A DNA stretch of 64,000 nt. Origin: Bryum argenteum. Its lineage: Eukaryota > Streptophyta > Bryopsida > Bryales > Bryaceae. The notes under the pieces are model-generated. The model did no database searches. It was not told the origin of the DNA and saw only the letters and a list, made by a program, of their open reading frames with translations. Both the position numbers and the translations under genes were made by a program. Location of the stretch: NCBI GenBank assembly GCA_037043015.1, contig CM073321.1:32590101-32654100 (forward strand), written 5' to 3'. Positions within the stretch are counted from its first letter, which is position 1. Each line of letters opens with the position of its first letter. This document shows positions 7,966 through 57,299 of the stretch, one piece after another.

Positions 7966-8179
7966 TCCTCAAACTATGTGGCGCGTACGTGGCGCGTACG
8001 TGGCGTGTACATGGCGGCCAAGTGGCTTGGTTCTTACCCAAACTCTTGCGACGTCCTCGTTTTTTTACCTAAATTAAAGTCAACAGAGATTTGACCGTAT
8101 CAGGCGAGCGAGAGCAATATCGGACGGATAAGGCGGACAAACGGGCGGACGGCGTGCCCGCCCGGTATGACAACCTTGC

Positions 8180-12655: not shown

Positions 12656-12676
12656 AGACTTGCGTCACAGCAAGTC
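12656..12676. repeat. Palindrome AGACTTGCG..GCAAGTC in transposase intron (A)
   Basis: AGACTTGCGTCACAGCAAGTC is an imperfect palindrome in the intron of element A's transposase. Element B has CAGACTTGCG-GTGA-CGCAAGTCTA at the same intron place, and the 17.8-24.6 kb satellite has the same palindrome in perfect form. Confidence 0.8.
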
Positions 12677-12800
12677 GGATCTCAAAATAGAATATTTTTA
12701 ACTTTTTAAAAAAAAACATTGTTACTGAAAAAGATACAAAAAGCAGAATATCATATACTAAAAAAGTAAATATATTTTACAGATTTACTAGACATAACCT

Positions 12801-13046
12801 CAATTCCGTTAAAATGGCACTATGCCATGTGCCATTTTGTCACACCAAATTTTACATATGTGTTCACATTTAATGGTGTATTTTGTAATATCACAATTTT
12901 TTGATAATATCACTCCTTTATACACATTGTCACTCATTTTCCATAATATCACCTTGAAATTCTGTTATATCACATGGTTTTTGAACTACAGTTCAGAAAG
13001 CTGAGGTGTGCCATTTTAGCGGCATAATGCCATTTTAACGGAATTG
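12801..13046. mobile_element. 246-bp MITE, copy 1
   Basis: Ends are CAATTCCGTTAAAATGGCAC and the inverse (…GCCATTTTAACGGAATTG), about 22-24 bp of inverted repeat. A second copy of exactly the same length is at 32109-32354 with about 90% similarity by eye. Both have the internal hairpin TGGCACTATGCCA. It carries no coding capacity and lies in the intron of element A's transposase, so it inserted into A. A target duplication is not clear. Confidence 0.9.
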
Positions 13047-15190
13047 GGGATACATCAATTCACGTGTACATAATTGCTATAGTGATTGTGGACTCACCAA
13101 TTCCATGATTCCACCCCACTGCCTATATCGGAAATGCCAGAATGCAAGCTAGTGTTCGAGGTGACCTAATCCAACTTCGGAGGTGGCTTGCGCCGACGCC
13201 CACCACACTCGGATCGCCCAGTATCTAGTCTCCGCCTCAGCCATGGTGCGTGCATCTTTGTATTGCTTACAAAGATGTCGATGTTGATCCTGCAGCTCGT
13301 GCACGATGTATTGTTTGGTGTGTTTCTCTAGGGATTGCGTCCAATGGAAGTAGCAAGTCCGCTCGCGGCCTTCCATGGGCACTTTAGGGTCTCCGGAGCC
13401 ATAAATGATCCGCACAGCGTTCCAGTTGGCTTGCGCACTGTCGGCCATGAACCCTTGAAACTGCGGCGCTTCCACTCCGTTCCTGCCCATGACGTGGTTA
13501 AGGTTCTTCCAAAAGACGATTTAAGCATCTCCGTCTTCAGACTGGAAATCACAGCATGCAATAGTTAGAATGCGGCAGATTTTAGAGTCATAAACGTGGC
13601 ATGCCATGGTGGTCCAGTTCTTGACACGCTTGACGTGGTCGAACATTAACCATGCGTGGGACAGGTCGCCTCCGGGCTGCATACGACGAACAAGGTCAAC
13701 ACCGCTTCCGGGGCCGACCTCGGACATCTTGAAAATGAATACTTTGTCACTTTCATCTCCTTGCCTCGGGAATTGGTTACGTTGGATATAAGCCCAGTTG
13801 CTGAGGCCTTGAAGCTTGGTTATCCCATCGAGAACACCGTATCTGCGCAAGTGCTTAAAAGTGGTAATACGATTCCTGACGCTGGGAGAGTTCAGCTCTT
13901 TACACTGATCGAAGATAGGTTCTAGCTCCCGGAGGGTAAGCTTGGAGGTTACAGGGTCACGTTCTTCACGGAGAAGTAAGTTTCTGAGTAAGTCCTTGCT
14001 TGCCTCCATGACTATTTTGGGCGTGGTAGCTTGTGGGTTACGTTCTACGTGCTCCTCTATCAACTCATCAATTATTTTACGTGCACATCTGTAGTCTCCG
14101 ACTTTGACAGCATGTTTGTGATTATCGATATGCACACACGCCCGCTCTTGACTCTCCTCTCCGAATACGTAGAATATTTTAGCATGGCATAAAGCAACAC
14201 AAACGGGAGGTTCTTTGCAGATCTTACAGACCAGTGTTGAAGAAGGAGGTGGTGCGAGGCCGACCGAGAAGGGGTCCTTGGTAAAACCCTCGAACTCCAC
14301 CTCATTAACTTGTGCTCTGCGGTCAGGTCGTAGCAAGAAGCCGCAGTTCTCATTGTGGCCTTGAAGATGGCCTATACAATTAGAGTAGCGGAATGACAAA
14401 CCGAGGTTGTTACTGATTTTAGTAATCTCTTGTCCATCCCTTCCATAGATTTGGCTACCTTGACAGCAGTAGTTGGTAGAACGGGAGGGAGAATATATAG
14501 GACATCACCATTGAAAGTGGGGGGCAGGAAAGAGACGCTGTGAGTACGAATGGAATCGAAATCAATTTTTTTGAGTACGGTTTTGTTGCGAGACATACTA
14601 CCTAGTCTACGGAGTGAGGAAAGAATGTTTTTGGGTTTTACGACTTTGGACGTGGGAAGAGAGTAGGGGGTGGTTCTGAGACTGTGTACTGAACCAAACG
14701 AGGGGGGAGGCAGATTTGATGATAGTCGACGGGACTGGATAGATAATTTCCTTTCATCGTCGGATGAATCAGAAATATCAATTCGGACTTCGAGTCCGGG
14801 TTCCACCTTGACACGAGCAAGAACTGGAAGAATAGTGGAGATGGTAGAAGAACTACGAGGGGTGAGGAGGACGGTGGAGGCGTTCATGACGGACTCTGTC
14901 AAGCCGAACAGTCGATATTGTCCGGGTCGAAGCTTATACATTTTTAAGTTAAGCTCTAGGGCGAGTGGTTTGACAAGGATAGAATAGTCGACAAGATTAG
15001 TGTTTGGATCCCAGACTTGATTCTCTAACCAGAGAGAGGACTCATACAACCCAAAACAAATTGCTAACCAAGAGGGAGTAACTTGAGCCAATCCATCCAC
15101 ACCCGGAGGAATGCAGATTGGAGGACTTAGGTCTCCAAACCTAATGGCAATGACGTCTGCAGCGGGAGGTAGAGGAGCGGAAGATGCCAT

Positions 15191-15748
15191 GATAGACGAA
15201 GGCGAGAAAGAGGGCATCAACAAGCGCGCGGAGAAAGAGAGTCTTATGTGCGTTTTGGAAGTTCAAATACGAGAAATTGGTGTAAGGTATTTGCATACGT
15301 ATTGAGTACTGATATCATATAAGTATTAACTTCATATAATACAACGTACAGATATTCAATACTCCTAATCGTGAGCAGAATAATATAAAAGCACGTTACT
15401 TAGGATACTTAAAATATCTGGACTGACATAATTGCATTAATTACTTAGGATTTTAAATATGAGATCCGTCGAAAAAATAAGTAGGGATAGAAGGTAAAGT
15501 GACAGCGGCAGTCATTGTCAGAGATTTAGATGGGTAATAGATGCGTTCAAAAGTTATCTTATTTTGGATTGTCAGACACGGTGATAGCGGGATGTTAAGG
15601 AATACGTGGTGGCTGATTAGGGTTTCTTAGCCACATGGGAGAACTTATATAATGGAGTTGGAACTCATAGGTCAACCTCTTCATTTGCAGTGAGAACACT
15701 TGGACTCGTTAAGTGGAACGTCTCATAAGTTATCTCATTCTAAGAAGC
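15191..15748. promoter_or_regulatory. Divergent promoter region of element A
   Basis: The 558 bases between the start codons of the transposase (15190, minus) and ORF2 (15749, plus). A TATA-like TTATATAAT at about 15644 lies some 100 bases before the ORF2 ATG. For the minus gene, AT-rich TATA-like stretches lie around 15300. Element C has the same arrangement with 569 bases, supporting a shared bidirectional promoter. Confidence 0.5.
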
Positions 15749-16480
15749 ATGGACGAAACCGGGGACGGTAGTGAGAGAGGAAAGGAAATAGGTCTGAGAA
15801 AGAAGAAGCGGAGGGGTGTTACGAAGTTCACTAACTCCAAAGCACAGAGGCGTAGTGCTTTGCGGAAGCGGGATGGGAGAAGCTGTAGCGGCGATGATCG
15901 GGAGCGAGACGGGTACGATCTCTTGATCGACGATGATGTGCTACCGCCATTCAGGCGGACTATCAAAATGCGATCGCTCAAACTCGATAGTGTTACAGAG
16001 AGTGTCGGGACAGACGAAGCTGAAGAAGAGGAAGAGGAAGGGCGTAGAATGCAGTTCAAGACGTCTAGCGATGTTGTTTGCGTGGATGGGGTTGACGATG
16101 GAGGTATAGACTCTACATATGAGGTAATGAAATTTTATATGTTATAAGTCCGTGAATATTTGTAATGGTTGAACAATTTCCGTCTACGTATATCGATTAA
16201 TATGTACATGTGATGTTTTCAAAGGCGCAGAGGATCAAAAGAGGAAGACAATCGATTACGATATGAAACAGTCATGTTTGAGGAGAAAAGAGTCACTGAT
16301 ATGGGCGAGCGGGCAGAAGGCTCTTGTGATCAGGAAACAGAGAATGATGTAGCGGATGGATTTGAGTCAAGTGTTGAAGAATTAGAGGAGGTACATGAGA
16401 AACCCTACTTCCTGGTTTACTGGGAGGACTTAGGGGTGGTAAAGTATACGATCAACAAGAACTCATTTTTCAATATGTAG
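15749..16480 (+). pseudogene. ORF2, divergent partner of the MULE-like transposase (element A)
   Basis: The ATG at 15749 opens an exon to about 16123 (donor GAG/GTAATG) encoding a basic N-terminus (KKKRRGVTKFTNSKAQRR), MRSLKLDSVTES, and an acidic tail. A second stretch (about 16226-16480) carries EKPYFLVYWEDLGVVKYTIN. Both halves match element C's ORF2 (KKKKRGDIKFSGTKAIRR; VRSLKLDAVVES; RPKFMIYVYRNGYIQHWLIE). The apparent splice (acceptor AAAG at 16224) joins the two parts out of frame by one base, so this copy may be defective or use another site. The family is unknown to me. A nuclear, DNA-binding helper of transposition would fit the basic/acidic layout, which is an inference. Confidence 0.6.
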
Positions 16481-16689
16481 TATTGAGTTTTGACATGATA
16501 TGGTTTCATGATATGTATGGACCCAATATTGATAAATTTATTTTATATTGATATGGATTGCAAAGACTTAGTGCAATTATCAAAATATAGTACGTAATAT
16601 TTGTGAAATAAGAACGAGGAAAAATAAAAAACTACTGAATGACAAAGTAGGTATAGTCAAGTAGTCGGGCCAGTTCTCGATGGCCACGT

Positions 16690-16935
16690 CGGTCCTAAAT
16701 GGGGCAGGGCGGTATTGTCGGGGTACGGGACGAGCCGGGTAGAGGGAAGGCGAGCCGGGTAGTGTCGGGGTACGAGCAAGCCGGGTAGGGACAGGGAGAG
16801 CCGGGTAGTGTCGGGGTAGCGCCGGGGGTCGGGGTAGGGACAGGGAGAGCCGAGTAGCACCGGGGGTCAAGGACGGGCGAGCCGGGTAGTGCCGGAGAAC
16901 GGGGCAAGGCGACCCGTGTAGTGCCGCGGTACCGG
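16690..16935. repeat. GC-rich minisatellite (GAGCCGGGTAGTGTCGGGGTA unit)
   Basis: Irregular tandem copies of GAGCCGGGTAG followed by KGTCGGGGTAcggga-type spacers. Long frames across it on the minus strand (RYPALPGSP-like) are repeat artefacts. Confidence 0.8.
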
Positions 16936-17835
16936 CCGGGTAGGAGCAAGCTGAGAGATGCCGCTCCCGACGGCAGTCTTCCCCATCTGCGCAGGCGCCC
17001 TGCGATGGCTGTCGTTCCCACGATGGCTGTCGTCCCCACGAGCCGCTTCCCGATCGGTAACTTCAGCAGCGGCGGAGTTTAAAGCCGATTTTTAGCTGGC
17101 ATCACAATGCTCCCTTCGGCAACCCTGTGCGCTTGTCCTTTCAGATGCCTCTGGAGGCGTTTCTTTCAATCAACTTTCCCGCAAGAGCAGCATTGACCAG
17201 CGCAATTGGTTGGCATTGCTGCAAAAGATGGAGAATAAGACAATGGAGATTAATTGAACCTCAATTAGGGATTCCTGTACGCCGCATTAGTGATGAGATC
17301 TATTTTTAGAGTGTAGTATTTTTAGAAGATCTGAAGGATCTGCACGAACAAAAGTAGCTTCGAGATGGCTGACAGCGTTGAATATGAAATGCGGACCTCA
17401 TTTGAGACGTTGATAAAATTTATTATCCAGCTGTGTTTAGCACCGTCGTTGGACTCCTTTTGCATATTGCAAATCGAAGGGAAGAGGTGCTCAGAACGAA
17501 GAAGAAGGAGAAATGGCAGAGGAAGTGCAAGACAGATGGTGCGGCTACAAGGAGAGGAGGAGCACGTGCTGCATGGAGAGGAGGAAGTCGTGATGAGAGG
17601 AGACCAGCTAGTCGCCAAGGATCTCGAGAATGTGAGTTCTCAATCATCGGAGTCAAGTATCTTCTCTTCCAATTACAGGGCTCATCCGAATTGAGGCCGA
17701 TCTTTCAAGACTCGAGCGGAATTGGAAAAGGTATGGATTACACAAACCACCTTCCTGTTGATTCTCTTGAAACCCTAAATGCAAGAAGGTCTACTCCGGG
17801 TGTTTGAGATCTTGAACTTGTCCAACTCCAAATTT
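16936..17835. other. Stretch with short uncertain frames
   Basis: Plus-strand frames at 17365-17694 and 17433-17807 overlap each other and are rich in Arg/Glu; a splice-like CAG at 17677-17680 exists, but neither frame shows a domain or matches another part of the window. I do not call a gene here. Confidence 0.4.
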
Positions 17836-18428
17836 TCGGCTGCTGAACGTCTCGAGGATTAGCATCATTCATGATAGCCGAGAGGGCGCGGTTATCAACC
17901 AGATGATGATCACAGTATGGGAGCACTACGCCGCTGGGTTAATCTCGTTGATTGAGTCTCCTGCGAGGCAGTTCGAGCGGGCGATGAAGCTCCACGCTGA
18001 GCCTGGGATCCCCACCTGCTGGACCTCGAAAGCCCACGGATATTGTGGGGTTTTTGGATGAGTATTAGATTTTGCCTTGCAGAGTTTTGAATTGGTCGGA
18101 CGAGTGCCACACTTGCGTCGACGCAAGTCTGACACTTGTCCAACCAAATTCTCATTTGTTTTTATACTTTAGGTTGTTGATTGTGTGGAGAATGAGCGTC
18201 ATTCGTGATAGCCAAGAGAGCAGGCTTATCAACCAGATGATGATCACAGTATGGGACACAACGTTGCTGGTGTTAATCTCGATGATTGGATCTGCCTGCG
18301 AGGCACTTGAAGCGCGCGATGAAGCTCTACGTTGAGCCTGGGATCCCCACCTGCTGGACCTCGAAAGCCCACGGATATTGTGTGGTTTTTGGATGAGTAT
18401 TGGATTTTGCCTTGCAGATTTGAGAATT

Positions 18429-18480
18429 GGTCGGACGAGTGCCAGACTTGCGTCGACGCAAGTCTGACACTTGTCCGACG
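18429..18480. repeat. Satellite palindrome, representative copy
   Basis: A stem of outer arms GGTCGGACGAGTG and CACTTGTCCGACC around a perfect inner palindrome CAGACTTGCGTC/GACGCAAGTCTG (12 + 12 bases). It recurs once per satellite unit, with the inner part conserved better than the flanking unit. The centre GTCGAC is itself self-complementary. Changes such as GCGTTGACACAAG in the unit near 22240 and GCGTCGATGCAAG near 22590 are single departures. Confidence 0.9.
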
Positions 18481-19578
18481 AAATTCTCATTTTTTTTTAC
18501 AGTTGGCTGCTGATTGTGTGGAGCATGAGCGTCATTCGTGATAGCCGAGAGGGCGGGGTTATCGAAAAGATGATTGTCGGATGCCATGTATTCACTTTAC
18601 CTTCCCTTACACGTTTAATGGTTTAAAACCCGTGTTTAGGTGACTCGTGTATCGTTCCAGGGATTCTGTGAAGTGACCAAGACAAGTAGTGCTAAAACAA
18701 CCAAACCCCCAAACGTTTCTAGTACCAACTTATGTTTTAGCCTTGCATGGCAAGGGTATCCCTTTGCAAGAGGGGATGCACAAAGACTCTTTCCCTTATG
18801 TTTACCGTGGCGGAAACTTCCACACTTAGACTCTTTACACACACGCACACACTAAGGCACACATTACGTCCTCACAACTAATCCGTCCTATCCGTCCGAA
18901 CTAGCAGGTCACGCAGGCCGTCCTGGTTACTCTATCACACTTACTACAATGACAGACTCCAAGAGCTCCGTATCCGGCTAGAAGACGTCTACACGTATTC
19001 TCGTCACATACTGCGCTTGATCCATCCTCTGAGACTACAGAGGAACCCAAGTCTGTGGCAGCTGGAGGTCGGATTGGAATCCGTCCTCACACACTCTACT
19101 CCCAGACCCTCCCAGACCGTAAAGTGTTTACCACAGCAGCTTCCCTCTCTCAGACACCTAGACCAGTTCAAGACACAAGGCACTCAAGAATACGCCCAAT
19201 CCGACTTCAACTCCACAGAAACGATCTATCAAAGAATCCGGATTCCTAACTCCCAACTCATAACCCAACACAGTAGATCCGACTTTTCAAGCACTCAACT
19301 GAGAAGGAGACAGGGAAATGATCACACCGAATATGCGCATAAGAAGGTTCGATTAACACTCAAGCAAGGAATGTTTTAGGTGGCCAAACTACCACCTATA
19401 AGTACTTCTAAGTCAACGACTTAGATACCTAACTGGATTGCGGCGCCGGCCTATAAGGCCTACTCCTCAAAAAGCGGTACGCATTTCCAAAAAAAGAAAA
19501 TACTATACTGTCCTAGGACGGATCCCAATCCATCTTCTTAACCTTGGCCGTCCTCTGACTGCCGACCTCTAATACGTC

Positions 19579-20805
19579 CTACCTCCTCCTTCGCGAACTG
19601 ACCCCGTGCTTCGGCCGCTTCAGTGGCGTAGCTGCGATACGTCCTGCCTTCACTCTTTTGCTCGTATCGCTTACCACGTACTCGTCCTCGCTGGAGTTGG
19701 TCTCGTCCCCGCTCTTCAGCTCTTCTTCTTCGGAGTGCTCGAAGCCGATGTCGTGAAGCTTCTGGGCCCCAGGAGACTTCTCGTATTCCTCGGCCATAAG
19801 CTTCCGCTTCGCGGTTCGAGTATTCTTGGCCGGAGAATCTGCTGGGACGGGTGCGTCTCCCTCCGTCTTCACCTTCGCTTTGCCCTTCGTGTCGGTCGGA
19901 CTCGAGGGTCCAACATCCGTCCTCTCCATCTTAATCGGATCCGGCCTCGGAGTCTTGGCCGGGGTGGAAGTGAAAGCCGGCATGACTACCTCCTTCATCT
20001 GCTCCCGGATGGCGTCGAGCAGCACCTTGACCTCAGCATTGCTCTTCTCAACCTTCGCGGCGTACGTCTTCGCTGCCAAGAGAAACTTTCTAAAAGTTTC
20101 CGCCTTAAACACCTCCGACTCCAGGATTCCGGCCTCGTACAGATTTGCCTTCTGCAGTACCTTAGCCGGAGTCTCGCAGATTTCGACGAGCTTTACGACC
20201 TGCTCGTTTGCCGTGATTACGGCCTGCCGTCCGACCAGGAGTTCTTCCTCCCTTCTTCTGACCGTCTCGCGAAGACGTCTATTCTCCAGGATTAGCTTGG
20301 TCACTTGCTTCTCCATCTGTCGGAACTGCTCCTCGTCCGGCCTGGAGTCCCACTTCTGCTTCACCTCCAGCAACGTCCGCACCCCAAACTCTTGGCATAG
20401 CTGCGACAGTAGCTTCTGGTAGAAGAAGTACTGACACCTAGCTTCCGTGAAGTGGTGCCATGCTCGCCTCATGGGATCCGCATGGTTGGCGGACGAACTG
20501 AGAGGTGGGGGAAGTCTGGGGTCGTTCGGATTCATAGGGTTCTCCCAGTCGGCTGTAACTTCCCATTCATCCACCGGCCTCGAAGGCTGTCCTCGCTCAG
20601 TCTGAGTTCCGGCCTCGGCCGAGTTCATAGGAGGAGACGGGGACGGAAGGATGATTACCTCTGGACCCGTACGCAGTGGGGTTGCCTCTGGAGCCGGCTC
20701 TTGTGGCGCGTCCGGTTGGACGTCCCCGTCGTCTGATCCGACCTCGTCCTCCTCCTCGTCGGAGTACACGGCCTTGCTGTCCGCGCTCTCCTCTGACTCA
20801 AACAC
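19579..20805 (-). CDS. Long acidic coiled-coil protein of the 18.6-22.0 kb element
   Basis: A 408-codon frame. The first third is acidic and Pro-rich (YSDEEEDEVGSDDGDVQP, VIILPSPSPPMNSAEAGTQT); the middle is helical and likely coiled-coil (EKQVTKLILENRRLRETVRR, REEELLVGRQAVITANEQVV); the tail is basic/acidic (KRVKAGRIAATPLKRPKHGV). The listed first codon is GTG, so the true start is probably farther upstream, and the frame may be the downstream part of one gene with 20859-21488. The layout resembles structural-type proteins of plant non-autonomous elements. Function unknown. Confidence 0.55.
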   Translation of the reverse strand: MFESEESADSKAVYSDEEEDEVGSDDGDVQPDAPQEPAPEATPLRTGPEVIILPSPSPPMNSAEAGTQTERGQPSRPVDEWEVTADWENPMNPNDPRLPPPLSSSANHADPMRRAWHHFTEARCQYFFYQKLLSQLCQEFGVRTLLEVKQKWDSRPDEEQFRQMEKQVTKLILENRRLRETVRRREEELLVGRQAVITANEQVVKLVEICETPAKVLQKANLYEAGILESEVFKAETFRKFLLAAKTYAAKVEKSNAEVKVLLDAIREQMKEVVMPAFTSTPAKTPRPDPIKMERTDVGPSSPTDTKGKAKVKTEGDAPVPADSPAKNTRTAKRKLMAEEYEKSPGAQKLHDIGFEHSEEEELKSGDETNSSEDEYVVSDTSKRVKAGRIAATPLKRPKHGVSSRRRR

Positions 20806-20858
20806 TCATTTGTTTTGCGATGATAGCGCAATCTCATAGTTCGACTCTTCCTCCTCCG

Positions 20859-21488
20859 TCAGCACCTCCTCCTTCTTGTACAGGTGGTAAGAAAAGGAGT
20901 AATAGGGCTAGGATGGGTTTTACCTACGTTCTCCGCGAGCCGGGCGACCAGGTCGCGGATGATCATTCCCCAGTCGACTTCCCATTCGCCGCGCAGGGAC
21001 CCCAGGACGGTGTTGGCGAGCCGGACGGTTATGCGATGCGGCTTCTCCCCATGAATAATGGGCGCCAAAAACTTGATGATGGCGCGCTCCCTTGGATCCT
21101 TGCAATCCTCGACCGAGTAGCCGTTGTTCTTGTGCGGACTCCCGTGGAACGCCTTCTTCGTCCATTTGTGTTTCCGGCCGCACAACCCTACTCCACTGTT
21201 TACGACCAGGCCGTAAACAGCTCTCGAGTGGTCGTCCGTCCAGGAAGCCGGCATCCCTCTGACCGTCCCTTCGAATTGATTTGGCGCGCCGACCTTGATC
21301 TCGCGCACCATCTCCGCGTCGCGCAAACTCCAGGGCGTGTCCAGCAGGCCGGCTAGTCCCATCTTCTCGAGATCCTCCGTTAAAGACTTCTTCTCGTCCT
21401 CATCGATCGGAATGCACGGTGATACTAACTTGATGGAGATCTTCAGCTCCTCCTGCGCCTGAGCGGAAGCGGACGCCGTTCCTGCCAT
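20859..21488 (-). CDS. Plant-transposon-protein-like ORF of the 18.6-22.0 kb element
   Basis: ATG at 21488 (MAGTASASAQAQEELKISIK). The segment PRERAIIKFLAPIIHGEKPH followed by ITVRLANTVLGSLRGEWEVD and WGMIIRDLVARLAENVGK resembles the 'putative plant transposon protein' domain seen in many plant repeats (a helix, L-P/H, A-x-L, GxxxDxGxxI pattern). Upstream it has GTVRGMPASWTDDHSRAVYG. This is a family impression without a profile search. It lies just upstream of, and on the same strand as, the coiled-coil frame. Confidence 0.5.
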   Translation of the reverse strand: MAGTASASAQAQEELKISIKLVSPCIPIDEDEKKSLTEDLEKMGLAGLLDTPWSLRDAEMVREIKVGAPNQFEGTVRGMPASWTDDHSRAVYGLVVNSGVGLCGRKHKWTKKAFHGSPHKNNGYSVEDCKDPRERAIIKFLAPIIHGEKPHRITVRLANTVLGSLRGEWEVDWGMIIRDLVARLAENVGKTHPSPITPFLTTCTRRRRC

Positions 21489-24400
21489 GGGAAAGAAGTG
21501 CGACAAGAAGTACAAAGTGGCCGGGCTGAGATCGGCCAGTGGGCCGGATCGGAACTAAGGACGGAAAGCGGAAGACGGAGGGCAGGAGCGCAAGAAGACA
21601 AAAACCGCAGAAAGCGAGGAGGCAGGTGACGACAAGGGCGGATGGGTGGCCTTTTATAGAGGGAGCCGGAGTTAAGTCCGACCTCATGACTTGTTTTGCC
21701 GCCATCATTGCTATCTCCGTACGGAGTCGCCTTCTAGATTTCTCGCCATTATTAACTTCTTCGCCACTCCGTCCTTCAGCCGCCGTAATAACTTCCATTC
21801 CGGCCTCTGACAGCACGTCCTAGCCGTACGGTGACAGAGTACGGATTGGCAAATCCGTCCTTATTAACACAAACAAGATTTTAACTATAACACTTATTTG
21901 TAAAAACGTAATTGCCTTATAGTATACGGCCTAGCACATACTTAGGTCGGAATCTAGACTCTATACTTATTCTTAATGCGCATTAGAACTTAGTGGCCAA
22001 ATATCGAAAAAAACGGGGTCCGAGAATGATGATCACAGTATGGCATGGGACACAACGCAGCTCGTGTTGATCTCGTTGATTGAGTCCGCCTGCAAGGAAG
22101 TTCGAGTGGGCGATGAAGCTCCACGCTGAGCCAGGGATCCCCACCTGCTGGACCTCGAATGCCCACGGATATTGTGTGGTTTTTGGATGAGATTTGGATT
22201 TTGCCTTGCAGATTTGTAAATTGGTCGGACGAGTGCCAGACTTGCGTTGACACAAGTCTGACACTTGTCCGACCAAATTCTCATTTTTTTTTTAACTTTA
22301 GGTTGCTAATTGTGTTGGGGATGAGCCTCATTCGTGATAGTCGAGAGGGCAGGGTTATCAACCAGATGATGATCACAGTATGGGACACAACGCTCCTGGT
22401 GTTAATCTCGATGATTGGATCTTCCTGGGAGGCACTTGGAGCGGGCGAGGAAGCTCCATGCTGAGCCAGGGATCCCTACCTGCTGGACCTCGAAAGCCCA
22501 CGGATATTGTCTCGTTTTGGAGGAGCCTTGGATTTTGCCTTGCAGATTTGTGAATTGGTCGGACAAGTACCATACTTGCGTCGATGCAAGTCACACACTT
22601 GTCCGACCAAATTCTAAATATTTTTTACTTTTGGCTGCTGATTGTGTGGAGGATGAGCGTCATTCGTGATAGCCGAGAGTGCGGGGTTATCAACCAGATG
22701 ATGATCAGAGTATGGGACACAACGCTCCTGGTGTTAATCTTGATGATTGGATCTGCCTGGGAGGCATTTGGAGCGGGCGAGGAAGCTCCACGCTAAGCCT
22801 GGGATCCCCACCTGCTGGACCTCGAAAGCCCACGGATATTGTGGGGTTTTTGGATGAGTATTGGATTTTGCCTTGCAGAGTTTTGAATTGGTCGGACGAG
22901 TGCCACACTTGCGTCGACGCAAGTCTGACACTTGTCCAACCAAATTCTCATTTGTTTTTATACTTTAGGTTGTTGATTGTGTGGAGGATGAGCGTCATTC
23001 GTGATAGCCAAGAGAGCAGGCTTAACAACCAGATGATGATCACAGTATGGGACACAACGTTGCTGGTGTTAATCTCGATAATTGGATCTGCCTGGGAGGC
23101 ACTTGGAGCGTGATAACGCTCCACGTTGAGCCAGGGATCCCCACCTGCTAGACCTCGAAAGCCCACGGATATTATCTGGTTTTGGATAAGTATTGGATTT
23201 AGCCTTGCAGATTTGTGAATTGGTCGGACGAGTGCGAGACTTGCGTCGACGCAAGTCTGACACTTATCCGACCAAATTCTCATATTTTTTTTAGTTTTGG
23301 CTGCTGATTGTGTCGAGGATGAGCGTCATTCGTGATAGCCAAGAGTGGGGGGTTATCAACCAGATGTTGATCACACTATGGTATGCGTCACAACACTGCT
23401 CGTGTTGATCTCGTTGGTTGGGTCTGTCTGCGAGGCAGTTTGAGCAGGCGACGAAGCTTCACGCTGAGCCAGGGATCCCCACCTGCTGGACCTCGAATGC
23501 CCACGGATGTTGTGTGGTTCTTGGATGAGTATTGGATTTTGCCTTGCAGATTTGTGAATTGGTCGGACGAGTGCCAAACTTGCGTCGACACAAGTCTGAC
23601 ACTTGTCCGACCAAATTCTCATTTTTTTTTACTTTTGGCTGTTGATTGTGTGGAGGATGAGCGTCATTCGTGATAGCCGAGAGGGCGGGGTTATCAACCT
23701 GATGTTGATCACAGTATGGTTTGGGACACAACGCTGCTGGTTTTGATCTCGTTGATTGAGTCTCCTTCAAGGCAGTTCGAGCGGGCGCTGAAGCTCCACG
23801 CTGAGCCTGGGATCTCCACCTGCTGGACCTCGAAATTCCACGGTTATTGTGTGGTTTTTGGATGAGTATTAGATTTTGCCTTGCAAGTTTGTGAATTGGT
23901 CAGACGAGTGCCAGACTTGCGTCGACGCAAGTCTGACACTTGTCCGACCAAATTCTCATTTTTTTAACTTTAGGCTGCTGATTGTGTCGATATGAGCGTC
24001 GTTCGTGTTTGCCGAGAGGGCGGGTTATCAACCAGATGATGATCACTGTATGGTATGGGACACAACGCTGCTGGCTTAATCTCGTTGTTTGAGTCTCGTG
24101 CGAGGCAGTTCGAGCGGGCAATGAAGCTCCTTGCTGAGCCTGGGATCTCCACCTGCTGGACCTCGGAAGCCCACGGATATTGTGTGGTTTTTGGATGAGT
24201 ATTAAATTTTGCCTTGCAGATTTTTGAATTGGTCGGACGAGTGCTCCTCGTTGATCACAGTATGGTTTGGGAGCACTACGCTGCTGGTGTTAATCTCGTC
24301 GATTGATTCTGCCTTCGAGGGAGTTCGATCGGGCCATGAAGCTCCACGCTTAGCCTAGGATCAGCACCTCGAATGCCTTCGGATTTTGTGTTTTTTTTGG

Positions 24401-24869
24401 ATGAATATTGGATTATCAACCAGATGCTCCTCGTGGATCACAGTATGGTATGGGAGGACTATGCTAATGGTGTTAATCTCGTTGATTGAGTCTGCCTTCG
24501 AGGCAATTCGAGCGGGCCATGAAGCTCCACGCTGAGCTCGGGCATCCCGTTGGTCGACCAAATTCTCATTTTTTTTACTTCGGGCTGCTTATTCTGTCGC
24601 GGATGAGCGTCAATCTGGATTGTCCTTCGGGTTCCAGAAGGTTGTTAGCTCTGAGCTTTTTGTGAGCTGGAGGATGGTGGCTCCTCTTTTACACGGTCGT
24701 GACGGTGCCTGGCTAGCATGTAGACTGCGAATTGACTTCATTTGCCGTGACTTATGAATTTTGTTGAATTTATTTCTTAACAGAAGGTGGATTGATTAAG
24801 TTGAGTTTTATTTAAATTTGATTTCTGTAGTTTGGTTCTTAAATCCCGATGTTGGTGGTGTTCTTGCAG

Positions 24870-25187
24870 GATCCTTTCAAGCGAATTTTAGCTCATATTA
24901 AAGAGGAATCTGATGCAGATAGCGACCTTACCGCTATGAGAGATCATGTGTTGGCTGTAGTAGAGTCCCGTCCATTAGTCATAGCATTGATTGCGGTTCC
25001 CGAAACTCCACCTCTTGCCTCACCTGTCTGTCACACTTCACATGTTGATGTAGATTGGATTGCACGAGCAGTTAACATGGGAATTAATAAGAATGATGCC
25101 AAAGCACGTTGTATACAGGAGAAGGAATTTGCTAGACTTGCACCTAGACGTGCGCCACGTCTTGCTGCAAAGATGCAATCTCCTTAG
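24870..25187 (+). CDS. Small protein gene of unit D (last exon), PRRxPRLA tail
   Basis: An acceptor TTCTTGCAG ends at 24869 and the exon runs to TAG at 25185-25187. It encodes HIKEESDADSDLTAMRDHVL and VVESRPLVIALIAVPETPP, then a tail EFARLAPRRAPRLAAKM. The unit-E homologue at 60232-60609 keeps the same layout (SDFEEMRERVLETLGKRVLV, AARVTPRRSPRLAL), so both the acidic/hydrophobic front and the Arg/Pro tail are under family-level conservation. No known domain. The first exon was not identified; the satellite array lies directly upstream. Its downstream neighbour on the same strand is the ParB/methyltransferase-like gene. Confidence 0.6.
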   Translation, partial: DPFKRILAHIKEESDADSDLTAMRDHVLAVVESRPLVIALIAVPETPPLASPVCHTSHVDVDWIARAVNMGINKNDAKARCIQEKEFARLAPRRAPRLAAKMQSP

Positions 25188-25327
25188 ATTTATTGGAACA
25201 TTATATGATATGTTTATCATATACTTATTTACAAAAAGATTATGTACTCCTTTTTATTTATTGTTCTTCATTTCACACTATCTTATGCTTATTGTGGTGT
25301 GTTGTATTTGATTTTCTGGATTTCCAG

Positions 25328-26208
25328 ATGAGCATAGCTCAAGTCCATCTCATTCAAGATGAAGAAGCAAACCCGCCTCCTCTTAATCCTCCTCAAACTG
25401 TAACTTCCGATGGAGATGAACTCATACTTGATAGTGTGAGAAATGTTGATGACTTGAGAAGTGCAGTTCCGCAAGGGACTCCTTCAGTAACCGATCGCCA
25501 ACTTGTGGAAGGCGAATGCAATGCAGTTTCAAGTAACAATCCTTTCGAAGTTGCAGATATTCATCTACCAACGGAAGACCATGATGGATACCAATCCCTC
25601 TCGGATGATGAAGAATCTACATTGCCTGAAGGTGTCAATGTTGGAATCATTCACATGCCCACACATCTTGAAAACAAGGACCCCGACTGGAGTGCTAACA
25701 AGATGCGAATGCTCCAGAAGAGTGATTCGATTGCAATCATCAACAGGTTACGTTACAAACCTGTTAAAAAGTCTCGTATGCTTGTTCCACTTTGTCGCCT
25801 CGTCTGTTATCCGAAGGTCCGACCGATTTCTGAATAAGACGTTCAAAAACTAGAGAATGAGTTCAACAAAGGCAACCGCGAAGGTGATCGGGTAATGTAC
25901 GTGTCTCCCTTTGATAGAAAAGGCCGACAAAAAATCTTTGACACTCAACATGTACTTTGAACGAACCTGCTTTAGAAAGCCGCGAATGAAGAGTTCGAGA
26001 GTACGCTGCGGTCCGATCCAGATCTTCATAACCTTTGTGACAAATATTTCTATGTCTACGAAGGTAACCACCGTATTACAGCGTGGATGCGCCATATTGA
26101 GAGATACCACAAGAGTGATCCCTCGTGGTACATTTCGGTTGACTGCATCGTTCTCGATGCACGTGGAGAAAGCAATCTCCTCCTCGACGCTATGAACGAC
26201 GTAAACTG
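25328..26208 (+). pseudogene. Unit D large gene: N-terminal acidic region and ParB-like segment
   Basis: ATG at 25328 (MSIAQVHLIQDEEANPPPLN). After an acidic linker comes SIAIINRLRYKPVKKSR, LCRLVCYPKVRPI, DVQKLENEFNKGN, then KYFYVYEGNHRITAWMRHI and SWYISVDCIVLDARGE. The GNHRxxAW motif followed by a short V-x-C-I-V strand is what one sees at the core of ParB/Srx-type N-terminal domains, which in bacteria and phages are often fused to DNA methyltransferases; assignment is tentative. One frame holds throughout to a donor at 26208 (NW codon split), but three in-frame stops (25835 TAA, 25958 TGA, 25973 TAG) show decay. The unit-E copy has E-S-D where D has the first stop. Confidence 0.5.
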
Positions 26209-26298
26209 GTCAGCATATGTCGCATTCATTTATGATTTATGATTTGTTTTATGATTGTGTCATATACGATTTCTCTCATTTCTCGTTCTATGATCTAG

Positions 26299-27410
26299 GA
26301 CTACTGAACATGATCACGTCGAAGACAGTTTGTGTGCGAAACTCCAACGCATGAGGAAGTTTGGTAAATTGAAACTCGAAGATTTCAAGGACCTCATTTC
26401 TCCCGAAGATTACAAGATCTGTAAGAATGCCAAAGCAAAAAAGGAGACGTGGTATCCTGTGACAATAGACGTTTTTGTAAAATTTCTATATGCGGTACGT
26501 TCACTATATATGTGCTCGACTCATTTTCTTCAAATTTATCTAAAACAACTTCTCATTTGAGTTCTTGTTGTTTTATAGAGGAGGTTAGCGAAAAAATCCG
26601 ACGATGCTGAAGCTACGTACTACGCCACGGTTCCAAAAGATAAACAAACTGGACCGGGAGTATGGAGTGCCATGGATAACGCAATCAAGGCTGAAATCAA
26701 ATTAATACGTGGCAAGAATTTCGACAAGATGGTAGCCGTGGCCAATATCAAACTCGGGAAAGTATTTGCGAAAGAGGTATTGCTAGCTGGGTTCTTCGAT
26801 TACTGACACTGTAACTGTCTCTATGTTCTAATGCTCTAATCAAAACTGTGATTGTGATGTGCAGATTAATTTTCATTACAGCCAGAACCTGAAACCCGAT
26901 ATGACAATTGATCGCTTACAAATGGTGGCCACTACATTCACTTCGATTCCAAGGGAAAGTGGCTCCAATGTGGAACTCATCAAACGAAGTTCGACGATCA
27001 TTTCGCTTCCCAGAAGAACGCCCTATAAAAGATAAAGCGTTGGTTTCATTTTTACATCGTGCTTCTCTTTGGGCACAGGTAACTCGCATTTTCGTTCTCT
27101 GATTACAAAATTTGAGTTTATATGTTACTTTAAATACTAACATGTTTCCTATATTCTCAGCTTGAGCAATCACTTGAAAGTGAATTGCAGAATCTAGTAG
27201 ATAACGAGAACATCAACATTGAGTGGTCTAGTGTTGTCCTAAAGCCATCCGCGTATATCGAGAAGTGGAGGTTGCTCTTATGGGAGAAAGCATTCGGAAA
27301 CTATCTTTCTCCAACTGCAAGTCCGAAGTTCATTAAAGGCTCGGATCTTCGTAAGATTACTGGAGGCAAAGCCACAATTAAGCGACTTCTTTTCCTCTAT
27401 GTATTCCCTT
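26299..27410 (+). pseudogene. Unit D large gene: middle exons
   Basis: Exons 26299-26494, 26579-26776, 26875-27078 and 27161 to about 27400 are bounded by good GT-AG sites (introns of 82-98 bases). The first joins in phase with the preceding exon (N-W-T-T-E-H). Conserved blocks shared with unit E: RMRKFGKLKLEDFKDL, KETWYPVTIDVFVKFLY, GKNFDKMVAVAN, WPLHS...G-K...WNSSN, RASLWAQ and ENINIEWSSVVLKPSAYIEK, LSPTASPKF. A frame change occurs around 26905 inside the third of these exons. No family was recognised for this middle region. Confidence 0.55.
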
Positions 27411-27482
27411 TCCTATAATATATTATTACAAGTGGTTCAACGTATTCAATTTTCTCTCTCTAATTTGTTTATCTTCTTGTAG

Positions 27483-29442
27483 CTACTTAAAACAAGAGCT
27501 CGTTGCCAAGGGGGCATTAGCTTCGTTCTCCATTCCAATGGAGTTCGAGGACGTTTCAGTCACGAATGATCCCCGCAGCTTTTTCTCCTCATCCCAACAA
27601 GAGCGGTTTACCAACTCCCAATTGACGACTGGTGGATGGTTCCTTGAGTGCGACGACAACTATGTGCACAAGGAAGAGACGCATCTTCTTCGGAACATCG
27701 CTTCAAACCCATCTGACTCTGAACCGATTGAGATTAACGACGATGAAGATGACGACCTCTCCATTTTGCCAGTCGCACCTGATCCAATTTCTTCTCCTTC
27801 TTCACCACTTGCAATGCCCAAGTCTTGTGCAAACAGGAGGCAACGCAACGCTGTTGCGGAGCCTGTTGTAGATCTTCAGCAAGAGACCGAAGAAATTCCT
27901 CCCCTCCAAGAAGACATTGCAGGGCCTGAAGATGCTGATCTGACTCAGGTTTCAGAGGGTGCGACAAACAATGCAAATTGACGCAGTGCAAGACTGACTC
28001 AACTTTCAACAGGTGGACTTACGAATGTTGGGCCCCCTCCTCAATCATTCACCGTTGACCACAACTCTCAGCAGTTGCCGCGTTGCCTCAGCCAGCCAAT
28101 ATTTGCCAAACGTCCTCTTCCGAAACCAAATCACATTGGTAGCAGCTCGTCGTCAAAAATTTCAGTCACTCTGCCAATGTATCTCGAGAAGGGCAACATT
28201 GGAGATTTGGTACATCAATCGTCGAAGACTGCAAAATGGGATTTGCAAATCCTCGATATCGTCGAGCACATCAAGAAGGTTTTATTTCATACATTTGTCA
28301 TTTATGATCTCCCTAATTACGCTTTGTGCTTGTGAATCAACTAACCACTTTCTCATTATTCACTTGTATCTCAGATTGGCAAAGACCGTAAGTACCCGTG
28401 TTCGGCGATGGAGTATGATCCCAAGCATCCAGGGATTGATCTCATTTTTGTAGATGCTCCCGAGAACTTGCCTGTACCGGATGTGTCTCCAATAGAAATT
28501 CCATCCTGGAACCGGCGAGACAAACCCTACTTTGAGAGCCTCTTCGTGTTTGCGGCGTATCATTTGACAGACGTTGGAGCCATTCTTCTGATGCATCCCA
28601 AATGTTGTAGAATCGAGCGTACTCTCGATTGTGAGTCGCATACATATAGTTTTCGTCTTATAGGCGGGTGTGGCAATCATACCTGATGAAGAAGACCACC
28701 TCTGTAACTTTGCAGAGAAAGAAACATTGCGTTATCGTCCGGACGGTACGCCCTGGCGAGGCTCGCGTGAGAAGGACCCCTCCTTCATTCAATGTTTTGT
28801 CGATTGTCTCACGGACGATGGAGGTATTGTATTCGACTGGAGCGCAAGTACAGGTAATGTTTCTGTAATCACTGCGTTAGAATTTGTTCATACATTTTGC
28901 ATTTCTAACGTGTGCTTCTGATTTTTTAGGTGCATCTGTGATTGCTTGCGCGCGCTCCAACCGACACCTCATCGCTATGGAACCTGACAAAGAAATCTTT
29001 GATGGTGTACTAGCGGAATACAAGAATGGTCCTCCCGGTGATGAAGAAAGTGAAGAATTGGCCCCTCTTGCGGATTATGACTCTGATGAACCGGTCGCGA
29101 AGAAGCCACGAAAGTTCATTGGTGTGTAATACCATCTTGTATTCTCTTTCTCCATTTTAAATTACGTACTTACAAATCAGTAGTATTGACTTTCCTTGTA
29201 CTTTTAGGATCGCAGGTTTGAAGGAGCGATTGACTCGCAACGCTCATCTCTACAAGAGCCCTCCATCAACATTCACCCTACCATCCTACGCTGAGCGTCT
29301 TGCTCAAGAGTTTGTTCAAGCTCCATCTCCCATTTCGTCTGACACTCCACGTCGACGTTATAGCAATAGTGTGCTTAAGTTTATAGACTTTGAGGCAGAT
29401 GAGTGTGATCAGCACTTTAATGGTACTACACCGTCTGCCTAG
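27483..29442 (+). pseudogene. Unit D large gene: permuted N4/N6 DNA-methyltransferase-like C-terminus
   Basis: Exons 27483-28278, 28375 to about 28670, 28674-28853, 28930-29121 and 29215-29442 (TAG). The layout is that of the beta-class amino methyltransferases with the catalytic motif before the SAM motif: DLIFVDAPENLPVP where a D/S-P-P-Y motif would be, HLTDVGAILLMHP strand, then CFVDCLTDDGGIVFDWSAST followed by GASVIACARSNRHLIAMEPD and KEIFDGVL (the DPFxGxGT...GRxxIGIE block). The tail is LPSYAERLAQEFV ... FIDFEADECDQHF. DAPE instead of DPPY/SPPY makes catalysis doubtful. One in-frame TGA (27979) and a small frame change/deletion near 28665 mark decay. Splice of exon FDWSASTG/ASV is exact and in phase. 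Confidence 0.6.
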
Positions 29443-30279
29443 TTTGGGATTTGCTTTCTGATAGGTACTGGACATGGTAGCGCCATACATTCGTAGTTTA
29501 TCATGATCTATTACTTATATACTATCTATATGTGTTTTTCAATATATATGGTTTTATATTTTTATTTATCGTTATTTTCTTTTAAAGCTTAAGCTACACT
29601 AAGTGTTTCAAGTATTACTCTGAGTATCTTAATACAGTGTAATCTAAGCGAGGCATGCCTTTAACGGTGACGTCAGCCCTAATTTTGTTGTAACTTCTTC
29701 AACTCCAATTTTCATGCATCGGTGTATATAAATGTTTAAGTTTTAAACTCAATGCAGACTAAAATTTTTAGAAGGTTCTTTTTCTTTTTCATTGGAGTGA
29801 TGGAATCTTGCCAATGTTGGTAGAGGCTATAGTCGCGTATTTGTATAGCTTTGGATAGCTGCTTTAAGACGCAGTGCAACGCCCAAACGAGGCCGAGGAG
29901 AATCGAACTCGGACCACTACAATGCGACATGAATGTCTTTCTGTACACCTTACAAGGAGACACGGAAAGACGACCTGTAGTGATAAATTTCAGATTATAT
30001 AAATCGAAGCATTTACATATAATTCTGACAAATGTAATAGGAAATCTATGACGTCATCCCTAATTACTCCCCAAATATTAAAATCGATAAAATAAACTTA
30101 TTGATTACCGAACGAGCCATCCAAAAGTAGGGTTTAGATTTTGTATATGATTTGAATTGGATTGGTTACACATGATGATGCTAGCCTATAATTTAATTAA
30201 CGTTTATTCAAACTTGCAAATGTGGATTATTTATGAAATATTGTATGACCTCAATACCATGAAAATGGATGGATAAATG
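29443..30279. other. Unit D downstream region with tRNA-like B box (possible SINE)
   Basis: Mostly AT-rich. On the minus strand, 29913-29898 reads CCGAGTTCGATTCTCC, a good RNA polymerase III B box, flanked by CATTGTAGTGGT and followed by CTCGGCCTCGTTTGGGC and an A-rich AATGAAAAAGAAAAAGAA stretch. The piece at 54180-54230 is similar (CATTGTAACGCGGTAG, GGGTTCGAATCCC, GCCTCGTTCGAGC). No complete cloverleaf could be drawn, so I do not call a tRNA gene; a tRNA-derived SINE fragment is likely. Confidence 0.4.
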
Positions 30280-30440
30280 ACCTATGTCCACGGTTTTGGG
30301 TACTTTTATGCCTAAAAATGACCATTTCAAAATTTCAGAACCACCCATTCCATGGTAATAGGGCCATTAACTTTAACATTTTTTCCTTCTTACTGCTCAA
30401 ACTTCACCGCTCACCGCTCAACGCTCACACCGGTGGTTTC
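30280..30440 (+). repeat. Orphan 3' terminus resembling the MULE-like elements
   Basis: CCACGGTTTTGGGTAC (30290) and, at 30405-30436, CACCGCTCACCGCTCAACGC then TCACACCGGTGG closely match the termini of elements A and B (CCACGGGTTTGGGTCAC; CGCTCACCGCTCAACGCTCA). There is no transposase next to it on the left; unit D ends 840 bases upstream. It may be a solo end left by a deletion or the end of a short non-autonomous relative. Confidence 0.55.
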
Positions 30441-30696
30441 CCCAGGAGACGACCAAACTCGCACCGAAGAGATTGCAACTTGCTAGACTACCTTATTCTC
30501 GAAGCATGTCTTCGTCGTTTTCCAATCTAGCAAATCAGGGCGAAAGTTTAGAATTTCAAGTGATTTTCTTACTTCTGCTTTTGTTTTCTAGTTTTCATAT
30601 TCTATTTTCTGTATTGCTTGCAGATGCACTCTCGCTGTCTTAAGATCCGATTGATGACCGTCAACTTCTCTGATTGATTTGTTTGAGTGTGTGTAG

Positions 30697-36262: not shown

Positions 36263-36296
36263 CTAGTAATTAGATGAAATGAAAGGGGAGGTTCAA

Positions 36297-38876
36297 GCAA
36301 GGACTTACTCGGAAACTTACTTCTCCGTGAAGTAGGTAACCATATATCCTCCAAGCTCACCCTCCAGGAGCTAGAACCTATCTTCGATCAGTGTAAGACG
36401 CTGAACTCTCTGAGCGTCAGGAATCGTATTACCACTTTTAAGCACTTGCGCAGATACGGTGTTCTTCATGGGATCACCAAACTTCGAGGCCTCAGCAACT
36501 GGTCTTACATCCACCGTAACCAGTTTCCGGACCAAGGAGATGAAAGTGACAAAGTGTTCATTTTTAAGATGTCCGAGGTCGGCCCAAGAAGCGGTGTTGA
36601 CCTTCTTCGTCGTGTGCAGCCCCGAGGCGACCTGTCCGACGCGTGGATGATGTTCGATCACGTGAAGCGTGTGAAGAACTGGACCTCCATGGCGTGGCAC
36701 GTTTATGACTTAAAAATCTGTCGCATTCTAACTATTGCATGCTGTGATTTCCAGTCTGAAGACAGAGAAGCTCAAATCGTCTTCTGGAAGAACCTAAACC
36801 ACGTCATGGGCTGGAATGGAGTGGAAGCGCCGCAGTTTCAAGGGTTCATGGCCGACAGTGCGCAAGCCAACTGGAACGCTTTGCAGATCATTTACGGCTC
36901 CGAAGACCCTAAAGTCCCTATAGAAGGCCGCGAACGAACTTGCTACTTCCATTGGACGCAATCCTTAGAGAAACACACCAAACAATACATCGTGCACGAG
37001 CTGCAGGATCAACATCGACATTTTTGTAAGCAATACAAAGATGCACGCACCATGGGTGAGGCAGAGACAAGATATTGGGCGATCTGAGCGTGGTAAGCGT
37101 CGGCGTAGGCCACCTCCGAAGTTGGATTAGGTCACCTCGGACACTCGCTTGCATTCAGGCACTTCTGATACAAGCAGTGGGGTGGCTTCATGGAATTGAT
37201 GAGCCTGCAGCGATTGTAGCAATTATATACACGTGCGTTTATGTCTGGTAAATCCGTAAAATATATTTAATTTTTTATAATAGAATATTCTTCTCTTTTG
37301 AACGTTTACATTTAAATTTTTTTTCAATTGAAGAAAATCTATTTCTAGATCAGACTTGCGGTGACGCAAGTCTAACGCGCTCTCGATATCGTGATCAATT
37401 TATTTTGTTACTCAGTCAAATGTCTTTGCACCTTGCAGGAGAATAAATATTCTGCAGAAGAGCTGGCGGAGATGCCTTCATGTAACCTTGCGGAATCTAT
37501 CCGTAACAAATGATTGCAAGCGTTAGGCAACAAGGGTGGGGACTTGTACATTTCAACTGTTGATGATTATGTTCGTGCTTTCCTCCAAGTTGTGGGTTAC
37601 CACGACTTCAACGGAGGTGGCAAGGGTGGTAGTGGACCAACATCCGAAGAACTATTACTTCGTGTTGCCCATAAAGCTCAACAAACCGGTGATCCATCAG
37701 GCCTCACAAAGGGAGTTTACAACTATCCAGGAGTTGAAAAGATTTGTACCCGCGAGGCCCACCTTGAGGGGGCCGAGGTGTTCGAATCCAAGAAACGTAA
37801 GGCTGATGTTCCGAATGGAGCTGATGATGAAACGTACAGACCTGACACCGTGAGCTACTCACGTCCCCGAATTGGGAGAAAAGTTACCCGAGCTTGTGCT
37901 GAAAATCTGAGTATTATCCCCAAAGAGGATGAAGTTGAGGAGCCACCGACATTACCATCTACTTTTGCTGGACCTAGTATTGAACGTGTGACCACTGTTG
38001 AGGAGACTAAAGTAGACGAGAGGCTGTGGCACATTGCCCGTTTGAGGGAGAATTCTGCGAAGGCTTGTTGGGGTATCATGGGAAAGATTAAAAATAGATG
38101 TGACTCACGAATTATTCAGAAGGGAAGGCAACCGCAGCTCCAACTTACACCGGAGTATGGCAGCGCCCTCAAGAGGGGCTTATAAAAGTTGATCTGTTTT
38201 TGTTTTGTGCAGTTGATATTAATAGGTGTGTGAAGGGTCATTGTCGCAAGTGGATTGAGCCATTCTCTCTAAGCCAAGAAAGACCCCCTATATCTTCAAT
38301 ATGGCCTGTTAAGATAGGGACTAAACTTACACGTGATGAAATGGAGTCGTTAGAGAATGCGGGATTTCGACTACCACGAAAAGAACAGCTTCCTATGAAC
38401 CGCACTTTCAATAATGCTGCCCCACCAAGAGACTTGTCGCATATTCCAGTCCCGGAGAAGCCAGACGTGTTCCCTAGGTCAAAAAGATCGAAGAGCATAA
38501 ACGCATTCTAGCTATGACTTCAAAGCACATGAAGAATATTGAGTCTGCCACCTCAATGCAGGCCAAAATTCTGAAGGTGAGTATGATCCTGCAGCCTGGT
38601 TTTGGGTGTATCGTAGACTTGGAGTCGGATTTGGATGCAGTTTATAGACTTTCAATTAGTAAATTCTCGGGTTGCTCATGCCCAGCAGTCAAGAAAACAA
38701 TTTCTGCGTTAGGACGGAGAGATCCATACGGACCGTGCAAGCAGCTATACTTCATCACCGTATTGGTTTGCAAATTTGATGCGGATGCTGACCTCTTCAT
38801 CCACGCGGCCACTCTTAGTTTCAACGTGGTGAAGAAGATTCTGGAGGGAGGAATCCTAGACCATGCTACAGATTAG
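36297..38876 (+). pseudogene. SWIM-type MULE-like transposase, element B
   Basis: First segment 36297-37200: RRYGVLHGITKLRGLSNWSY, MFDHVKRVKNWTSMAWHVYD, FMADSAQANWNALQIIYG, CYFHWTQSLEKHTKQYIV; the frame is cut by TGA at 37085-37087 with homologous sequence (QWGG-F-MEL) continuing to about 37198. Intron about 37199-37438 contains the CAGACTTGCG palindrome. Second exon from 37439 (EELAEMPSCNLAES, one stop before LQALGNKGGDLYISTVDDY, GGGKGGSGPTSEELLLR, then KWIEPFSLSQERPPISSIWP after a frame change near 38180). Last part 38514-38876 is an uninterrupted SWIM region: CSCPAVKKT ... PCKQLYFITVLVCKFDADAD. The SWIM CxH is CxQ here, so zinc binding would be weakened. Confidence 0.75.
37351..37374. repeat. 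Palindrome CAGACTTGCG..CGCAAGTCT in transposase intron (B)
   Basis: CAGACTTGCG-GTGA-CGCAAGTCTA, the same inner palindrome as in the satellite units and in element A's intron. Position within the intron corresponds to that in A. Confidence 0.85.
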
Positions 38877-39331
38877 AATGCTTTAAATGTCCTCATTTAC
38901 ATACGCTATATGGTAGTCCTATGATTGTGTGGTTCACACTATATGTGATATTTTTTCACAACTGATTAAAAATAATTATACCAGTACCTACATGTACAGC
39001 AAACCTTGCCAATTTGTCTAACTTGGAGTACTAATCACTTAGAAATATTACCTTAGAAACCTCTTGACATTTGCAAATTGTGATTTACTGTCGGGTTTTC
39101 TAGCTCAAGTCCAACCAAATTCAAGGAATTTAAGCCTTATTTTCCACGGGTTTGGGTCACTAAATCCACGGTAGTAAGTCAAGAATATTCGAACATTCCC
39201 AAGAATATTCAAAAATTATTATCTAAAATAATTTAAGTAACTTTTGGAAATGTTTTTACTAAAAATACAAACTCAGCCCTAAAAATTCAAAATCTTACCG
39301 CTCACCGCTCAACGCTCACACGGTAGCAATG

Positions 39332-57240: not shown

Positions 57241-57299
57241 CTACAAAATTGTAACAATTAATTTTGAATACGAATTGCAAAAAAGTTTCAATATACCTT

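Follow-up and report, generated by a model that had tools for sequence, protein, structure and literature searches.

Why should a plant chromosome carry, twice within one short region, a gene for a small basic-tailed protein followed by a large gene that joins a ParB-like region to a DNA methyltransferase-like end? We examined this question in a 64,000-nucleotide stretch of the Bryum argenteum genome (assembly GCA_037043015.1, contig CM073321.1, positions 32,590,101 to 32,654,100; hereafter the window, with all short coordinates referring to it), in which an earlier reading made from the letters alone (the sequence-only reading) had marked two such blocks, D and E, as units. Comparison of copies fetched from the genome shows that block D makes up the right half of a single DNA transposon, also called D below, whose left half is occupied by a SWIM-type transposase gene; E, likewise, is half of a larger transposon with its own transposase and not a unit of its own. 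The explanation that we find best, and hold at slightly better than even, is that D serves as the accessory half of a plant DNA transposon, autonomous and of the cut-and-paste type, and would supply it with a self-marking or anti-silencing kit, in which the ParB-like protein acts on palindromes of its own element.

Borders, copies and transposase of the element

The genome searched comprises 258.8 Mb in 25 contigs, and its ten strong matches to the Dof zinc finger (112-120 bits), a family not known outside green plants, mark a green plant, probably a land plant in view of their number. A 601-bp probe from block D found 404 candidates in this genome, and all 40 that were scored proved 87-100% identical to the probe. 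Leftward from block D the copies run on through a tandem array and the transposase gene, and they end sharply, at 30443 on the right and at 11222/11223 on the left. The termini of D are 37-bp imperfect inverted repeats, and the target duplication outside them is exact (10/10) in D (AGGAGACGAC) as well as in copies L020 (CATTGCCGCA twice) and L024 (AAATCTGCCC twice); with 9/10 in L019 and none in L015, duplications were found in four of the five copies checked at both ends. Element size varies, from 14.6 kb in L020 to 19.2 kb in D. The mobile or amplified family suspected from the window alone is thereby established through its borders, its target duplications and its many copies. D's left duplication adjoins a separate high-copy repeat (10600-11222; at least 26 copies at 82-91% identity), which stops exactly there and into which D probably inserted.

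By eye, the product of the left gene has a SWIM motif (CSCP...CKH, near 11.8-12.0 kb) and a DDE-like block (near 13.1-13.9 kb). Searching the genome with the transposase yielded 1032 candidates; 150 matches were scored, and in many of these a reading frame stays open over more than 700 codons. The ParB-like exon of E, used in the same way, gave 1104 candidates, of which the 150 scored all reached an E-value of 3e-48 or better (123 of the scored ParB exons without listed stops and 27 with them, as judged by eye). The two genes travel together: 50 of the 150 scored transposase hits have a divergently oriented ParB-exon hit within 25 kb, mostly at 6-11 kb. Random placement, repeated 500 times with the sizes of three contigs approximated, gave 1.5 such cases on average and never more than 7.

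As to superfamily, Sola1 elements duplicate 4 bp of their target, and membership of D in Sola1 was rejected on its 10-bp duplication. The transposase of L020 matched no Pfam family up to an E-value of 10, the profile for transposases of Mutator-like elements (MULEs) included, which divergence may explain. The available part of one account of MULEs (PMC6446971) gives them target duplications of 8-11 bp, a SWIM zinc finger and extra open reading frames; D's duplication fits that range and a SWIM CxC..CxH pattern is present by eye, but, unlike in MULEs, the transposase of the D family has no match to a Pfam transposase profile, and the superfamily is assigned here from such features and not from a profile. 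The window also holds the transposase of a further element, F. It is not part of E because F's terminus, placed by eye near 54001, falls between the two, and E plus F as a single element was rejected on this ground.

The large gene and the two halves of its protein

From 16 aligned copies, the window copy included, we built a model of the large gene with 10 exons (25328-29442 in D) and a product of about 1190 residues. GT-AG sites are largely conserved, with one altered splice site in five of the 16 copies. Between D and E, tblastx gave collinear same-strand matches at 32-71% identity from the tail of the small protein to the C-terminus of the large one; E represents a second subfamily (49%) and copy L049 a third (about 52% in the ParB-like region). 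In 13 of 16 copies the small partner, upstream of the large gene, is open over 113 codons or more and has a PRRSPRLA-like tail. The arrangement described by the sequence-only reading, two diverged copies in opposite orientation with a dedicated small partner ahead of a multi-exon gene, therefore stands. Its call for intact copies is answered in part: both window copies are broken, D by three stops in exon 1, the loss of 5 bases from exon 4 and an altered splice donor (about 235 bp present in most fetched copies are also missing at 28659), but two of the 16 aligned copies have no in-frame stop, namely L012, in which a single splice acceptor is altered, and L023, with a compensated frameshift.

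The large gene is under purifying selection. Across 98 of the 105 pairs of 15 copies (seven were dropped for too little or undefined synonymous change), the ratio of non-synonymous to synonymous substitution (dN/dS) was 0.227 for the whole frame, 0.607 for the N-terminal 110 codons, 0.151 for the ParB-like region, 0.137 for the middle region and 0.236 for the methyltransferase region. Shifted-frame controls on the ParB-like region gave 1.95 and 1.82, so the frame is not a product of chance. The lowest value of the protein (0.137) belongs to residues 301-660, a stretch in which a Pfam match is absent.

That the C-terminal half is a true relative of the beta-class N4/N6 methyltransferases is proven at the level of profiles, in agreement with the beta-order end read from the sequence. 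Aligned by hhalign with six phage or viral beta-class enzymes, it scored an E-value of 1.4e-9 (Prob 96.4) over 64 columns, and none of 100 column shuffles did as well. The N-terminal part of the domain, which holds motif IV, is suggestive: its E-value was 0.0029, with DAPE aligned to DPPY, and one of 100 shuffles reached the score. PF01555 matched the large protein at E-values of 0.0011-0.1, with 0.0011 the best value in a set of five rows of which two matched; the bit scores (13 in one search, 15.7 for the first row of another) lie below the curated Pfam cut-off of 26.7, which other loci of the genome pass. PHROG DNA methyltransferases matched from an E-value of 1.6e-4 and an NCBIfam methyltransferase at 0.012, one distant methyltransferase was matched in the viral-contig scan (query A2), and profile searches of the Protein Data Bank yielded nothing credible. 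Elsewhere in the genome, L051 (C4:20498200-20498700) and its near copies at C7:9878445 and C4:20517855 are intronless N4/N6-methyltransferase-like frames, two of the three exceeding the PF01555 cut-off. L051 and the transposon protein have the pattern RG..EK...TASTGAS in common, and this set, whether host gene or another element, would form a bridge between the transposon protein and the PF01555 family.

The ParB-like assignment of the N-terminal region is plausible, as the sequence-only reading had it from the GNHR motif, but the significant matches expected for both folds were obtained for the methyltransferase only. In its favour, phrog_1033 matched the GNHR block at an E-value of 0.0033, in near-identical D copies only. 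A series of results counts against it: the same profile reached 0.47 in E and was absent in the third subfamily; PF02195 (ParB_N) matched none of seven rows and nothing in the genome; NCBIfam gave no ParB match for the region; an hhalign comparison with IbrB-type ParB proteins was equalled by 86 of 100 shuffles; and the viral-contig scan, the bacterial-genome scan and tblastn against phages and plasmids found no match to it. AlphaFold models, built for the ParB exon from both copies in the window with stops entered as residues, and for the F transposase, were unusable (predicted local distance difference test scores of 33.6 and 29.6). The better argument for the call is position, before the methyltransferase, as in phrog_498 and in an Ectocarpus protein (see below), and we consider a ParB fold in the N-region fairly likely.

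The palindrome array and its candidate roles

Between the transposase gene and the small gene lies the tandem array, every unit of which contains a single near-perfect palindrome; in D it is split by a 3.4-kb stretch containing long minus-strand open reading frames (18575-22025). The palindrome, AGACTTGCGTCGACGCAAGTCT, extends over some 48-54 bp around the centre ACTTGCGTCGACGCAAGT. In exact form, its 18-bp core stands at 444 places in the genome, and the reversed control at none. With up to three mismatches allowed, the core is present in 17 of the 21 copies searched, the other four starting downstream of the array or having lost it. Seven D-family copies matched by the 601-bp probe lie on C1 below 18.3 Mb, and six of them have an exact core within 5 kb. 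Mean identity across copies is 0.92 in the core versus 0.27-0.35 beyond 60 bp, the flanks being unalignable, and the array period itself varies by copy, being about 333 bp in the window but 437/50 bp in L027. Selection on the symmetry of the palindrome finds weak support in the number of paired cells (1121/1375, compared with a maximum of 1111 in 1000 shuffles that leave relatedness uncontrolled); in L012 and L010 the core has changed on two sides with the dyad preserved.

The transposase gene points left, and the genes for the small basic-tailed protein and the ParB-like/methyltransferase-like protein point right. In the self-marking explanation, the ParB-like protein would bind the palindromes of its own element, much as ParB binds parS, and the methyltransferase-fold half would mark or shield the element's DNA. 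The element might thereby escape silencing or be recognised by its own proteins, by analogy with VANC and the VANDAL elements. Some observations on the DNA side speak against this. The E and F regions yielded no palindrome of this kind. Among 19 core clusters, taken from the first 50 of the 444 places listed, six lie within 5 kb of a ParB hit and eight near a ParB hit (5 kb) or a transposase hit (10 kb), leaving 11 near neither among the 150 ParB and 150 transposase hits listed; these may be unlisted hits or array-only remnants. The palindromes could, moreover, be bound by the transposase rather than by the ParB-like protein, and motif IV is not that of an active enzyme.

This last point opens the way to a catalytically dead large protein, its methyltransferase fold retained as a DNA or cofactor platform in a structural anti-silencing or transposition factor, which we regard as somewhat improbable. 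Active beta-class N4/N6 DNA methyltransferases have the catalytic motif IV [DNS]PP[YFW]; in D as well as in E this motif is DAPE, which makes the methylation step doubtful. DAPE is found in all intact D rows except L022 (DALE) and L023 (the compensated frameshift stretch instead), motif I reads SASTG rather than the usual xGxG, and the motif IV half still appears retained, as a platform would have it. Against a dead protein, however, stand the purifying selection on the methyltransferase region and the conservation of the motif-I neighbourhood across subfamilies that differ in half their residues, both of which are best explained by activity.

A plant parS-like system, in which a ParB-derived protein with a DAPE-altered methyltransferase fold would load on the 48-54 bp palindrome arrays and spread over or mark the element, as sequence-specific anti-silencing or self-recognition machinery evolved independently of VANC, strikes us as doubtful. 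Still less do we expect the palindromes to be transposase binding sites, or hairpin or cruciform sites of transposition, with the ParB-methyltransferase protein acting elsewhere. A related near-palindrome does lie between transposase exons at four places, and some core clusters are closer to a listed transposase hit than to a listed ParB hit, but transposases usually act at element ends, whereas the array is internal, several kilobases from both termini, and directly upstream of the small and large genes in copies. A domesticated or captured family of host genes, repeated by coincidence, would suit the many intact ParB frames but is exceedingly improbable, and was rejected on the termini and target duplications, with the sharp common ends, the transposase within the unit and the dispersed copies pointing the same way.

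Table 1. Coordinates of the features of element D and its surroundings in the window.
Feature	Position	Strand	Remarks
Whole transposon copy D	11223..30443	+	19,221 bp; copies stop sharply at both ends, same 10 bp flanking
Left target-site duplication AGGAGACGAC	11213..11222	+	identical to 30444-30453
Right target-site duplication AGGAGACGAC	30444..30453	+	
Left terminal inverted repeat	11223..11259	+	inner 24/37 bases identical to right one
Right terminal inverted repeat	30407..30443	-	
Transposase gene	11687..15262	-	broken in D; open reading frames; SWIM and DDE by eye
Near-palindrome AGACTTGC-N6-GCAAGTC	12658..12675	.	between transposase exons; also in two fetched copies and the 36-39 kb fragment
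Open reading frame with basic KKKRRG stretch	15713..16147	+	has a homologue in element F (48960-49187 minus)
Tandem array, first part	17831..18574	+	about 335-bp units, two palindromes
Tandem array, second part	22026..24650	+	333-338-bp units, six palindromes
Second-part palindromes	22218-22276, 22555-22610, 22888-22943, 23220-23275, 23559-23614, 23896-23951		
Small partner open reading frame, ends PRRAPRLAAKMQSP	24843..25187	+	splice acceptor-like site before FLQDP
Large gene exon 1	25328..26208	+	ParB-like region, GNHR motif; three in-frame stops in D
Large gene exon 2	26299..26494	+	
Large gene exon 3	26579..26776	+	
Large gene exon 4	26865..27078	+	5 bases lost in D
Large gene exon 5	27161..27396	+	
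Large gene exon 6	27483..28278	+	acidic linker
Large gene exon 7	28375..28659	+	motif IV position, DAPE in D; deletion cuts exon
Large gene exon 8, remainder	28659..28853	+	start lost in D
Large gene exon 9	28930..29125	+	S-adenosylmethionine (SAM) motif I continued
Large gene exon 10	29208..29442	+	
Second D-type transposase fragment	36278..39337	+	identity with 11220-14007 about 90%
F: transposase of a further element	49733..53516	+	terminus near 54001 by eye
E: large gene, broken	54636..59893	-	stops; inserted repeat at about 55.3-56.8 kb
E: small partner open reading frame	60232..60609	-	

Other mobile DNA surrounds these features. At 8171-9190 an open reading frame strongly matches DUF7869 (PF25273, E-value 8.6e-41) and apparently belongs to another mobile element, and a repeat-flanked region at 43405-44154 holds, by eye, reverse transcriptase/RNase H-like fragments of Ty3 type. 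Upstream of the small gene of E, positions 60792-60923 form a long inverted repeat of 132 bp, perhaps a miniature inverted-repeat transposable element; it was considered as E's counterpart of the palindromes and rejected, since it resembles a separate small element.

Relation to known systems

The sequence-only reading had thought this kind of gene undescribed, which does not hold. A published account (PMC12477816, 2025) places ParB-methyltransferase accessory genes in giant transposons of brown, red and green algae and, in the part available, cites Iyer 2011 and Petroll 2025 for the green and red algal transposon proteins, the red algal ones being those of giant EnSpm elements. Its Ectocarpus element Sola1-1_Ec32 is a 21.5-kb transposon with an accessory gene for a 1104-residue protein, ParB-like and N4/N6 DNA methyltransferase. 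The D family shows two features of this class, lying within a transposon with its own opposite-strand transposase and encoding an N4/N6 (beta-class) domain, and D resembles Sola1-1_Ec32 in its giant size, in the similar length of the protein, in the order of a region plausibly ParB-like and then the methyltransferase, and in the strand opposite the transposase. The two differ in host (plant versus brown alga), in the 10-bp duplication and in the SWIM-type transposase, where the algal element belongs to Sola1. Set against the available part of that account, it is only for D that DAPE, a small partner gene and an array of palindromes are noted, and we take the kind to be known already, with the plant host, the other superfamily and these three features absent from that part of the description.

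Two further systems bear comparison. The phage fusion phrog_498 has a ParB part (28-163, matched by ParB proteins) followed by a methyltransferase at 362-414, which was matched here at an E-value of 0.025; it differs from the D protein in being an intronless phage protein with stronger motifs, and the ParB part of the D protein is without a match to it. VANC of Arabidopsis VANDAL21, as the available text of PMC5735166 describes it, is an accessory anti-silencing protein of a MULE whose targets form tandem repeats. D, too, is a plant element with an accessory protein and tandem repeats, a likeness of analogy only; its core is a palindrome of 18 bp and not YAGTATTAY, and no Pfam match to VANC or DUF1985-type domains was found among the proteins searched.

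The element described here thus extends a little-studied class of algal transposon accessory proteins to a plant, in which the family is large and recently active. Its array gives the element an internal stretch of repeated, dyad-symmetric DNA that is an obvious candidate target for the ParB-methyltransferase protein, and the function of such proteins in eukaryotic transposons thereby becomes testable.

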